Assembly (NCBI RefSeq): GCF_024609765.1
Contig: NZ_JANFDG010000029.1
Location: forward strand, 1 to 64,000
Source of the DNA: Shinella pollutisoli
Lineage (GTDB): Bacteria > Pseudomonadota > Alphaproteobacteria > Rhizobiales > Rhizobiaceae
Length of the DNA stretch: 64,000 nucleotides
Reading direction: 5' to 3'
This document shows positions 15,960-22,178 of this stretch, piece by piece. Position numbers and translations under genes: made by a program. Numbering within the stretch: position 1 is the first letter of the stretch; every line of letters begins with the position of its first letter. The notes under the pieces are model-generated. The model was not told the origin of the DNA, searched no databases, and saw only the letters and a program-made list of their open reading frames with translations.

Positions 15960-16835
15960 TCAGCCGTGCACCGGCGCGCCCCAGCCGCCCCAGATGTAGA
16001 TGGCGAAGAAGAGGAAGAGCCAGACGACGTCGACGAAGTGCCAGTACCAGGCGGCCGCCTCGAAGCCGAAATGCTGCTTCGGCGTGAAGTCGCCGCGCAT
16101 GGCGCGGACGAGGCAGACGATCAGGAAGATCGTGCCCACCAGCACGTGGAAGCCGTGGAAGCCGGTCGCCATGAAGAAGGTCGCGCCGTAGATCGAATCC
16201 TTGAAGGCGAAGGGCGCATGCGCATACTCGTAGGCCTGCACGAAGGAGAACAGGATGCCGAGCGCGACGGTCAGCGCCAGGCCGTTGACGAGGCCCTTGC
16301 GGTCGTTGTGGAGCAGCGCGTGGTGCGCCCAGGTCACGCAGGTGCCGGAGAGCAGCAGGATCACCGTGTTGTAGAGCGGCAGGTGCCAGGGATCGAGCAC
16401 CTCGATGCCCTTCGGCGGCCAGACGCCGCCGGTGTGCTCGACGCGGGCGGCCTGGATCGCCTCGCCCGGGAACAGGCTGGCGTCGAAGAAGGCCCAGAAC
16501 CAGGCGACGAAGAACATCACCTCGGAGGCGATGAACATGATCATGCCGTAGCGCAGGTGCAGCGAGACGACGCGGGTGTGGTGTCCCTCATGCGCTTCCT
16601 TCACCGTGTCGGCCCACCAGCCGTACATGGTGTAGAGGACGATCAGGAGGCCGATGAAGAAGATCCACGGCGTGGCGAGGTCGAGGCCGAAGAGATGCAG
16701 CGAGCCGCCCGACAGGTAGCGCATGTAGGCGACGCCGCCGATCGCCAGCACGAAGGCGCCGATCGAGGCGAGCAGCGGCCACGGGCTGGGGTCGATGATG
16801 TGGTAGTCGTGTTTCTTCTGGTGCGCATCGGCCAT
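15960..16835 (-). CDS. ctaE: Cytochrome c oxidase subunit III
   Basis: A 291-residue membrane subunit of aa3-type cytochrome c oxidase with about seven transmembrane helices. Characteristic segments are [54 protein letters not shown], the [14 protein letters not shown] helix and the C-terminal [14 protein letters not shown]. It is the last gene of ctaC-D-B-G-E and ends at an intrinsic terminator. The ATG at 16835 begins MADAHQKKH. Confidence 0.96.
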
Positions 16836-16893
16836 GTGACTTATCCCCGAATGTATCGCTTCAGCTCCCGGCATAGCCGGAAACGTCTGTTTT

Positions 16894-17499
16894 TCAAAGC
16901 TGGTTTGCGTTCCCCGCCTTCGTCTCGACGGCCGAGGCCACGGGCTTCGTGCCGGCATGCGGATAGAAGGTGTAGGAAAGCGTGATCGTGTGGATGCCCT
17001 TCGTCTCGACCGGATCGACGATCGCCGGGTCGACGAAGAAGACGACCGGCATCTCGAGCTCCTCGCCCGGCTTGAGCGCCGTCTCGGTGAAGCAGAAGCA
17101 CTCCACCTTGTTGAAATAGGCGCCCGCCGCCTCCGGCGTGACGTTGAACGTCGCCTGGCCGGCGGTCGGCGTCGAGGCGAGATTGCGGGCCTTGTAGAGC
17201 ACCTGCACCGTCTCGCCGATCCGAAGCTCCACCTCGCGCTGCACCGGCGTGAAGGACCAGGCGAGGCCCGGCGCGGTGTTGGCGTCGAAGCGCACCTTGA
17301 TCTTGCGGTCGAGGATGACGTCGGAGGCTTGCTCGACGCGCTGCGTCGTGCCGCCGTAGCCCGTGACCTTGCAGAACAGGTCGTAGAGCGGCACGGCCGC
17401 ATAGGCCATGCCGAGCATGCCGAAGACGAAGGCGCAGCAGACGGCGACGATCCCGCCGTTGCTGATGCCGCTCTTCTCGATCTTCCGCGGTTCCGTCAT
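16894..17499 (-). CDS. ctaG: Cytochrome c oxidase assembly protein CtaG (Cox11 family)
   Basis: A 201-residue copper chaperone that delivers copper to the CuB site of subunit I. It has a single N-terminal transmembrane helix (about residues 17-35) and a periplasmic immunoglobulin-like domain with the copper-binding CFCFTET motif. The [17 protein letters not shown] and [10 protein letters not shown] segments are also conserved. It sits between the small 46-residue gene and ctaE in the oxidase operon. Confidence 0.96.
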
Positions 17500-17502
17500 G
17501 GC

Positions 17503-17643
17503 TCAGCCCGCTATTCCGCCGGTGAACTTCACCAGCGTGATCACGTAGAACAGGACGACGAGGGCGAAGAGCACGACGGCGAGCGCGACGTTGCGGCCGC
17601 GGCGCGACTTCTTCTGGTTCTCGGTGAGGTTCACGGTTTCCAT
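17503..17643 (-). CDS. 46-residue single-TM protein in the oxidase operon (CoxF-like)
   Basis: A 46-residue protein beginning [18 protein letters not shown], with a basic N-terminal segment and one transmembrane helix (about residues 21-40). Its ATG shares one base with the ctaB stop (TGATG) and it ends 3 bases before the ctaG start, so it is clearly embedded in the operon. A small unnamed ORF between ctaB and ctaG, sometimes called CoxF, is usual in alphaproteobacteria; function unknown, assembly role inferred. Confidence 0.85.
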   Translation of the reverse strand: METVNLTENQKKSRRGRNVALAVVLFALVVLFYVITLVKFTGGIAG

Positions 17644-18587
17644 CACGACACCCATCCGAAGGCGGCGACCAGGTGGTCGAGCATCAGGCCCGAGAAGATC
17701 GCGAAGAGATAGAGGATGGAGAAGGCGAAGAGCTTCTTCGCCGGCACCATGGCGCGGTCGCCCTCCGGCATGAAGAGCACGCCCAGCGAATACCAGACGA
17801 AGCCCGCGCCGAGCACGGCGGCGAAGACGCCGTAGCCGAGGCTCGCGAAGCCGAGGAAGGTCGGCACGACGGCGATCGCCGCCGTCAGCACGGCATAGGC
17901 GAGGATCTGCACCTTGGTCGTCGCCTCGCCCGCCACGTTCGGCAGCATCGGCACGCCGACGGCGTCGTAGTCGCGCATCTTGAAGAGCGCGAGCGCCCAG
18001 AAATGCGCCGGCGTCCACAGGAAGGTGATGAGAAAGAGGACGACGCTCTCGATGGAGACGCCGCCGGTGACACAGGCCCAGCCGATCATCGGCGGGAAGG
18101 CGCCGGCGGCCCCGCCGATGACGATGTTCTGCGGCGTCGAGCGCTTCAGCCACATCGTGTAGACGACGGCGTAGAAGAAGATGGTGAAGGCGAGCAGGCC
18201 CGCCGAGAGCCAGTTGACCGCAAGGCCGAGGATGACGACGGAGAAGACCGAGAGCGTCAGCCCGAAGGCGAGCGCCTCTTCCGGCCGGATGCGGCCGGCG
18301 GGGATCGGACGCCTCGCCGTGCGCGACATCACCGCGTCGATATCGGCGTCGTACCACATGTTGAGGGCACCGGACGCGCCGGCGCCCACGGCGATACAGA
18401 GGATGGCGATGAGGCCGAGGACCGGGTTGATCGTGCCCGGCGCGACGACGAGGCCGGCGAGCGCCGTGAAGACGACGAGCGACATCACGCGCGGCTTCAG
18501 CAGCTCGAAGAAATCGCGCGCGGTGGCTTCGGAGAGAGCGATCTCGCCCGCGCCGCTTTCCGCCTCAAAATGTTCGATGACCGCCAT
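17643..18587 (-). CDS. ctaB: Protoheme IX farnesyltransferase (heme O synthase)
   Basis: A 314-residue UbiA-family prenyltransferase of the inner membrane that adds a farnesyl group to heme b to make heme O for the aa3 oxidase. The aspartate-rich motif is [21 protein letters not shown] (about residues 77-97), with the second, [10 protein letters not shown], further on. About nine transmembrane helices are expected. No heme A synthase (ctaA) gene is present in the window. Confidence 0.95.
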
Positions 18588-18680: not shown

Positions 18681-21252
<2,572 letters not shown>

Positions 21253-21272
21253 AACGTATCTCCCCAAGGTGT

Positions 21273-21286
21273 TTGATCGGGATCAA
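21273..21286. promoter_or_regulatory. Perfect FNR/FixK-type box upstream of ctaC
   Basis: TTGATCGGGATCAA exactly fits TTGAT-N4-ATCAA, and the dyad extends to GTTTGATC-GG-GATCAAAC (21271-21288). It lies 20 bases upstream of the ctaC start, downstream of a possible -10 element at 21306-21311. The likely binder is an FnrL/FixK-type regulator, and its position suggests repression at low oxygen. Confidence 0.75.
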
Positions 21287-21305
21287 ACAGATGCGCAGAA
21301 TCCCT

Positions 21306-21311
21306 GCTATA
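21306..21311 (-). promoter_or_regulatory. Possible -10 element of the cta operon
   Basis: TATAGC on the minus strand, about 54 bases upstream of the ctaC start, is the best -10-like hexamer in the leader. A good -35 is not obvious. If used, transcription would start near 21299 and the FNR-type box would lie in the first 30 transcribed bases. Confidence 0.35.
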
Positions 21312-21647
21312 CTGACTGCTTAAAATCACAGTTTCATGCTCGCCGCAACCGCATTGGGGGAGAGCCCGTGCGGCATTTTTGCGCAAAGGCAAGTCGCGCG
21401 CGCACTTCCCACATTTTCTTCCTATTTCCTTATAGCATGAATGGGTTGACCGGGGCGAGCCCGCCGGCGGACGCCGTCGCGCGCCGCTGCCGGACCGCCC
21501 TCCGCAAAGGGCCGGAAGCGCGCGGCGCGCGGCGCGGCGGCGGTCCAAATTCCGCCCACAATCGACCGGAAATGAGGGGCCGGGGCTTTTCATTTCGCCG
21601 CCGGCTATTCAAAGATACCGGCGATGATTCGAGATTTCGAGGTTTTC
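21312..21647. other. Intergenic region between ctaC and the IalB-like gene
   Basis: About 335 bases without a convincing gene. The part next to ctaC is AT-richer (21400-21440), as expected for promoters; the middle (21460-21550) is a GC-rich low-complexity stretch of GCGCG runs. I find no RNA gene or clear operator other than the FNR-type box next to it. Confidence 0.5.
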
Positions 21648-22178
21648 ATGGGTTTCCTCTCCCTTTCCAGGCTGTCGCGGGCGGCATCCGGCCTTGCCGT
21701 CCTGGCGCTCGGCACCGCCGCGCTCTCCGCTCCGGCGGCGGCGCAGCAGCCCGGCACGGTGAAATCGAACCACGGCGCCTGGTCGATCGTCTGCGACCAG
21801 CCGGCGGGTGCCTCGGCCGAGCAGTGCGCGCTGATGCAGAACGTCATCGCCGAGGACCGGCCGGAGCTCGGCCTTTCCGTCGTCATCCTCAAGACCGCCG
21901 ACCGCAAGGCGAAGATCCTCCGCGTGCTCGCGCCGCTCGGCGTGCTGCTGCCGAACGGCCTCGGCCTCAACGTCGACGGCAAGGACATCGGGCGCGCCTA
22001 TTTCGTGCGCTGCTTCTCCGACGGCTGCTATGCGGAGGTGGTGCTGGAGGACGAACTGCTGAAGACCTTCCGCTCCGGCGCCACCGCCACCTTCATCGTC
22101 TTCCAGTCGCCCGAGGAAGGCATCGGCATCCCCGTCGACCTCAAGGGCTTCGGCGACGGCTACGACGCCCTGCCCTGA
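21648..22178 (+). CDS. Invasion-associated locus B (IalB) family protein
   Basis: A 176-residue secreted protein: signal peptide with cleavage near APAAAQQ (about residue 32), then the IalB domain with HGAWSIVCDQPAG, EQCALMQNV and the YFVRCFSDGCYAEVVL motif holding paired cysteines. IalB was named for an invasion role in Bartonella, but relatives are common in free-living Rhizobiales with unknown function. The ATG at 21648 follows a CGAGG site; an ATG at 21624 is possible. The gene's 3' end overlaps the convergent MazF-like gene by 19 bases. Confidence 0.88.
   Translation: MGFLSLSRLSRAASGLAVLALGTAALSAPAAAQQPGTVKSNHGAWSIVCDQPAGASAEQCALMQNVIAEDRPELGLSVVILKTADRKAKILRVLAPLGVLLPNGLGLNVDGKDIGRAYFVRCFSDGCYAEVVLEDELLKTFRSGATATFIVFQSPEEGIGIPVDLKGFGDGYDALP

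Follow-up and report, generated by a model that had tools for sequence, protein, structure and literature searches.

A start-proximal FNR-type box at the aa3 oxidase operon of Shinella and its relatives, a probable site of low-oxygen repression

The ctaC box described here belongs to an already published kind, as repression of the aa3 oxidase by FnrL is on record in other genera and FnrN/FixK sites at cta genes are on record in Rhizobiales (here and below, each cited paper is represented by a part of its text). A 2010 study of Rhodobacter sphaeroides lists FnrL binding by ChIP-chip at coxII (ctaC), with the site TTGATtcagATCAA and the sign ‘-’, and describes the gene as ‘apparently repressed’ (PMC2908626), and FnrL is reported to mediate aa3 repression in Dinoroseobacter shibae (PMC5398030). 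A 2016 study predicted FnrN/FixK sites at the cta operon in both Rhizobiales and Caulobacterales (PMC4999443). Anaeroboxes at fnrN (-2) and fxkR9 (+38) of Rhizobium leguminosarum have been taken to repress, the wording for fxkR9 being ‘likely represses’ (PMC7888657), and two CtaC genes of this species, which may not be the ctaC considered here, are about sixfold up in bean bacteroids (PMC6421345). For Escherichia coli, 19 of the 23 promoters that FNR activates directly and whose starts are known have the site at -41.5 +/- 4, and the covered part of the same source describes no repressing FNR site wholly downstream of +1 (PMC3688515).

The locus that we compare with these systems lies in a 64,000-nucleotide stretch of the Shinella pollutisoli genome (the window). 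The aa3 operon is on the minus strand and begins with ctaC (20368-21252; TIGR02866, E 1.2e-59), which encodes cytochrome c oxidase subunit II from a GTG start that is conserved in Shinella. Downstream are ctaD for subunit I (18681-20348; PF00115), a haem O synthase gene that we name ctaB by its position (17643-18587; PF01040, the UbiA family), ctaG for a Cox11-type assembly factor (16894-17499; PF04442) and ctaE for subunit III (15960-16838, start estimated by eye; PF00510). This run of a TIGR02866 CtaC followed by COX1, UbiA, CtaG and COX3 proteins bears out the initial annotation, which had placed an FNR-type site at the aa3 operon. The site itself, at 21273-21286, reads TTGATCGGGATCAA on the plus strand and is a perfect FNR/FixK-type box, or anaerobox, identified from the sequence, a motif scan and its conservation; the exact fit to the TTGAT-N4-ATCAA palindrome that had been claimed for it is thus confirmed. 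It forms the core of a longer dyad, TGTTTGAT-CGGG-ATCAAACA, which had been described as perfect over 18 bp; perfect it is, but read from the sequence it extends over 20 bp (21270-21289), and neither box nor dyad is assigned a strand. The ctaC GTG at 21252 is 20 bp from the box, with the ribosome-binding site GGGGAG in between (21260-21265, minus strand; mostly conserved among the named loci, which are the best 80 of 594 confirmed ctaC loci). On the other side lies a divergent ialB-like gene (21624-22178, plus strand; PF06776), and an IalB match stands divergently beside ctaC in all 80 named loci.

Allowing one mismatch, the window contains three such sites where 0.28 are expected, and none of 100 shuffles reached three. 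The 5.22-Mb Shinella genome has eight perfect palindromes, against none for a reversed-pattern control. Among relatives, the box is strongly localised to the last 60 bp before the ctaC start: there, TTGAT-N4-ATCAA is perfect in 25 of the 80 named loci and within one mismatch in 34, figures that may miss a box in a few rows through a wrongly picked start codon, starts having been set by a ribosome-site heuristic. The best of 19 permuted-arm controls gave no perfect match in the same 60 bp and one within one mismatch. From -300 to -61, by comparison, the true pattern occurs in the named loci never perfectly and twice within one mismatch, and permuted arms reach up to one perfect match and five within one mismatch.

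Conservation of the dyad in close relatives, which the initial annotation had named as a test of its proposal, was found wherever CtaC is most similar. A first CtaC search matched 60 of 61 genomes and supplied 30 loci for inspection. Every one of the 21 Shinella genomes has a perfect box, 20 nt before the start in 20 of them and 21 nt in the other, and the nine remaining loci comprise two with a perfect box, one with one mismatch and six with at least two mismatches within 200 bp. At 78% or more CtaC identity, all 20 named loci have a perfect box, 19-21 bp before the start codon, with variation in its centre and flanks and none in its arms. Perfect boxes then fall to 1 of 5 at 74-77% identity, to 4 of 24 at 70-73% (with five more at one mismatch) and to 0 of 31 at 63-69% (with four at one mismatch). 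Among the 34 named box loci, all but one have the box 19-24 bp from the start, the exception being at 35 bp. We also scanned about 400 bp in each of 80 further genomes (5 from the same family and 75 from outside it), where boxes are rare: four perfect ones and nine within one mismatch occur, at other positions, the best permuted control giving one and three.

When the box is placed on a CtaC tree of 81 rows, it occurs within one mismatch in 35 of the 50 rows of one clade and in none of the 31 rows outside, a pattern that needs six changes. This clade is nearly all Rhizobiaceae, with Martelella (Aurantimonadaceae) inside it, and three of the rows outside are also named Rhizobiaceae. The simplest reading of the tree is that the box was gained once and lost in Rhizobium sensu stricto, the losses also including part of Neorhizobium. 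Because of this loss, and because Mesorhizobium and Brucella-group rows have no box either, the box does not seem essential for oxidase switching.

The remaining perfect boxes of the Shinella genome point to a familiar regulon. They precede uspA, ccoN, a c-type cytochrome gene, a gene for a DUF465 protein and a Crp-like gene, one lies between hemN and fnrN, and one of the eight (locus L007) has no assigned gene. Several of the genes at these boxes are listed FnrN/FnrL targets (PMC4999443, PMC2908626). Since sister sites precede ccoN, uspA, hemN/fnrN and the c-type cytochrome gene, we read the ctaC site as an anaerobox of the same set. Some of the wider set of boxes have features of their own. 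The second TTGATCGGGATCAA of the genome (L006:1501-1514) precedes the gene of the DUF465 small protein, upstream of what by eye is a lipoamide dehydrogenase-like gene, and has TAGGCT 21 nt away, while Rhizobium aethiopicum (the L060 genome) carries two perfect boxes 5 bp apart elsewhere (G270:C1:282755-282787).

The genome encodes a single FnrN (L119, beside hemN), with cysteines at positions 17, 20, 28 and 116 and an ETVSR recognition helix. N-terminal cysteines and an E-x2-S-R helix are hallmarks of iron-sulphur FNR proteins. Among NCBIfam models it fits FnrL best (E 1.2e-66; 224 bits, under the model cut-off of 300). An HMM search for Crp-type helix-turn-helix domains, in which 150 of 179 first-look candidates from the 79-contig genome were scored, returned ten matches over the cut-off, and ETVSR occurs in FnrN alone; the same search recognised no separate FixK. 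As none of the ten has a further ETVSR helix, FnrN is the likely protein at the ctaC box. It is unlikely that the box is instead bound by another Crp/Fnr protein answering another signal, such as the FtrB-like regulator L123. The recognition helix of that protein reads PEALSR and its gene start carries a perfect box, and two genomes keep the ctaC box although no ETVSR protein was found in them, but the ctaC box fits the full FNR consensus, the genes at its sister boxes are the known FnrN ones, and L123 matches FtrB models best while falling below their cut-offs.

The two genomes just mentioned are those of Rhizobium sp. Root482 (L043) and Pararhizobium polonicum (L046), in which a search at E 1e-6 found no ETVSR-type FNR/FixK protein; recent loss, draft gaps or another binder could each account for them. 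More broadly, the box does not follow the regulator across genomes, which speaks against repression by FnrN: a close FnrN/FixK match or an ETxSR helix is present in 24 of the 26 box genomes and in 20 of the 24 that lack the box. In this comparison, which showed no signal, 28 genomes were counted by their close FnrN/FixK matches (E up to 1e-80) and not by a helix, and the search cut-off stood at 1e-6 for six box genomes searched a second time and at 1e-12 for 16 others. The gene for L123 (L123/L008) sits beside a ureG-like gene (by eye), its own perfect box has TATCGT 22 nt away, and with FtrB as its best NCBIfam models, below their cut-offs, it is possibly a second regulator under FnrN control.

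How FnrN would act on ctaC depends on where the box lies relative to the promoter. The candidate elements that we favour, both on the minus strand and both predicted from the sequence, are a -35 TTTAAG (21319-21324; TTGAAG in most relatives) and a -10 GATTCT (21297-21302; three of six positions to consensus), which would put +1 near 21290 and the box at about +5 to +18. TTKAAG followed after a spacer of 15-18 nt by GATTCT (once GATTGT) is found in 35 of the 38 loci, out of the 80, where the script found both elements; the Shinella spacing is N16, and the pair is kept also in rows without the box. The initial annotation had instead assigned the promoter to TATAGC (21306-21311) as the only good -10. 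Its position on the minus strand stands, and it recurs in 21 of 21 Shinella loci, where it would give a +1 near 21299 and a box at about +14 to +27, but it does not deserve the description: T6 is absent, no properly spaced -35 is seen by eye, and, of the 39 named loci that hold GATTCT, only four have TATAGC at its place, others showing TATCGC, GATGGC or different hexamers. Because the TTKAAG-N15..18-GATTCT pair is better conserved, a promoter at TATAGC is unsupported. A sigma-70 scan of 21150-21700 returned no promoter-like site on either strand and thus recognised neither GATTCT nor TATAGC; this result and the weakness of GATTCT as a -10 count against the repression reading.

With either candidate, the box is downstream of the promoter and within the first 30 nt of the predicted transcript. 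The initial annotation had argued that an FNR-type site placed downstream of the start is usually a repressing one. This does not hold for E. coli as far as the source goes: repressing sites there span -125.5 to overlapping +1 (PMC3688515), and by that standard one lying entirely beyond +1 would be unusual. The box at ctaC is centred at 21279.5. Class II activation (-41.5) would require ctaC transcription to start at about 21238, within the coding sequence, and is therefore excluded for ctaC unless the start codon is wrong. The initial annotation had raised the -41.5 placement as the finding that would speak against it, and for ctaC this placement is not possible, as it puts +1 within the gene. 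With class II activation ruled out by the position of the box, repression by FnrN becomes likely.

We thus think it probable that the dyad is an FnrN site and that binding at low oxygen turns down the aa3 operon. FnrN, an oxygen-sensitive iron-sulphur regulator of the Crp/Fnr family encoded elsewhere in the Shinella genome, would dimerise at low oxygen and bind the box, which would lie at about +5 to +27 depending on the true promoter. Because the box sits between the ctaC promoter and the ribosome-binding site, bound FnrN would block RNA polymerase and lower expression of the aa3 operon, and it would meanwhile activate the cbb3 operon. What we observe is the box sequence, its conservation and fixed place, the gene for the regulator, and boxes at further genes of the known FnrN regulon; from these we infer not only binding by FnrN but also the start site of ctaC and the negative sign of regulation. 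The initial annotation had proposed direct repression by FnrL or FixK: FNR-type repression agrees with the FnrL precedents (PMC2908626, PMC5398030), but the protein would rather be FnrN, no FixK having been recognised. The literature that we searched described neither expression nor binding measurements for a ctaC box in this start-proximal position.

A dyad within a leader could also act as RNA. The corresponding explanation would have the hairpin UGUUUGAU-CCCG-AUCAAACA in the ctaC leader limit ribosome access independently of FnrN, and we consider it very improbable. The 8-pair hairpin does fold well as a 30-nt piece (-6.5 kcal/mol, z -3.92) and stands just before the ribosome-binding site, but the fold of the 60-nt leader is unremarkable (z -1.26), and Rfam gave no match up to E 1 in 20900-21900. 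Moreover, a set of 18 distinct sequences gives no clear sign that the flanking pairs covary (P 0.50, 1.00, 0.06 and 0.34), and the arms keep the letters of the FNR consensus. Separately, the ctaC (minus) strand has two terminator-like stems, at 21295-21307 and 21212-21227, where 0.9 would be expected, and one such stem (GCAGGGATTCTGC) falls between the candidate ctaC promoter and the box.

FnrN repression of ctaC may be only one side of the site. On the plus strand, the -10-like hexamer TATACT (21308-21313) would specify a start near 21320 and place the box, centred at -40.5/-41.5, where class II activators bind. We take seriously the possibility of a divergent promoter activated by FnrN, with the ialB-like gene as its possible target. 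The full proposal, in which a single FnrN site would repress ctaC and at the same time class II-activate a plus-strand promoter towards ialB, is possible if somewhat doubtful. TATACT matches the consensus at five of six positions, a better -10 than TATAGC, and is 21 nt from the box, which is the class II gap. No A2/T6 hexamer occurs at gap 21-23 from the ctaC box on the ctaC-facing strand, whereas the opposite strand has the best such hexamer of all the boxes compared. At the other Shinella boxes, A2/T6 hexamers at that gap are found on six of seven gene-facing strands (the one at ccoN only 2/6) and on none of the seven other strands; this split was drawn up with the hexamers already known, and one of the ‘other’ strands (L005 minus) likewise has an open frame ahead of it. 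There is a published case of two divergent promoters that share one FnrL site, by which both are activated (PMC5398030). Against the proposal, the sigma-70 scan of 21150-21700 found no site on the plus strand, and the ialB start is about 300 nt from the candidate promoter.

Counts of hexamers across relatives cut both ways. Under a strict rule, with A2 and T6 built in and at least four of six positions matched, 22 of the 34 named box loci have a hexamer at gap 20-22. Over the same 14 nt, loci with a strict hexamer number 22 for the opposite strand and ten for the ctaC strand, or 7 vs 1 when five of six positions must match. Strict hexamers are, however, commoner at gap 8-10 (30 of 34), where they derive from a conserved GCAGAAT. 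A 3/6 rule yields 31 of 34 at gap 20-22 against a median of three, yet gap 9-10 also reaches 31 and the rule is not strand-specific, both strands giving 33 of 34 in the same stretch; with a 2/6 rule, windows at gap 41-42 reach 30. Anchoring the count on GAATCC, an anchor that 7 of the 49 rows lack, separates 23 of 32 box loci from 0 of 10 loci without the box, but mis-anchored rows account for two of the 23 matches and for at least two misses, most rows without the box belong to one clade, and six of those ten pass a looser rule by eye. Neorhizobium JUb45 and Agrobacterium bohemicum have no hexamer at gap 19-23.

If both promoters are real, they would overlap: polymerase recruited to the plus-strand promoter would sit over the ctaC promoter, and promoter competition may then contribute to repression as much as FnrN itself does. 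We regard as rather doubtful the evolutionary form of this idea, according to which the anaerobox gained near the base of the mostly Rhizobiaceae clade would be a two-way switch, turning the aa3 operon off and the plus-strand promoter, with its -10 inside the ctaC promoter, on, such that the promoters are mutually exclusive and a low-oxygen transcript runs towards ialB. Mutually exclusive promoters, if true, would make the change from aerobic to microaerobic growth sharper than simple blocking, and the opposite-strand promoter, if real, would be a compact case of one regulator at one site producing opposite outcomes at overlapping promoters.

The region upstream of the ctaC promoter has a conserved feature of its own at 21342-21388, with GCAAAAATG[AC]CGCA in 62 of the 80 named loci and TTGCGGC in 39 of the 80. 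In the loci inspected, these half-sites stand about 21 nt from each other, and they occur also in genera without the box. We presume that they are perhaps an activator site of the RegR/ActR type, for which the literature searched yielded no usable consensus for comparison; alternatively, they may form a terminator-like inverted repeat on the plus strand. A plus-strand small RNA ending at GCCGCAA-N-TGCGGCATTTTTGC (about 21342-21388) was considered and is unlikely. It has no Rfam match up to E 1, pieces of the window of 73, 53 and 101 nt fold no better than shuffles (z 0.32, -0.27 and -1.78), and by eye the half-sites hold their 21-nt spacing and break without compensation in some relatives. In favour of such an RNA, a 91-nt plus-strand piece of Sinorhizobium glycinis that begins at the box reaches z -3.01, with 2 of 200 shuffles as good.

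The arrangement at ctaC ties the likely change from aa3 to cbb3 oxidase in a large plant-associated clade to a single site at one place. Because Sinorhizobium symbionts keep the box and the R. leguminosarum group does not, oxidase switching could be compared between these symbionts. The open-licence papers searched did not contain the fixed start-proximal placement in the clade, the loss in Rhizobium or the opposite-strand class II geometry.

The Shinella site resembles that of R. sphaeroides coxII/coxI in having a perfect TTGAT-N4-ATCAA at the operon of aa3 subunit II, where in R. sphaeroides it is bound by the FNR orthologue FnrL (PMC2908626). The likeness is one of site and operon, as the placement 19-24 bp before the start (all but one, at 35 bp) is a feature of the named box loci. 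The 2016 prediction for the cta operon likewise shares the type of site and the operon, and in the covered part of that paper it comes with no sign, position or opposite-strand promoter and does not name Shinella (PMC4999443). An anaerobox that overlaps a start site or, as predicted for ctaC, lies downstream of it is known also from fnrN and fxkR9 of R. leguminosarum, although those are regulator genes and not an oxidase (PMC7888657), and rows of the R. leguminosarum group have themselves lost the ctaC box. Finally, the FnrL/Dnr site between nirS and nosR2 of D. shibae offers a parallel for one site serving two divergent promoters; both are activated there, whereas in Shinella one of the two sides would be repressed (PMC5398030).
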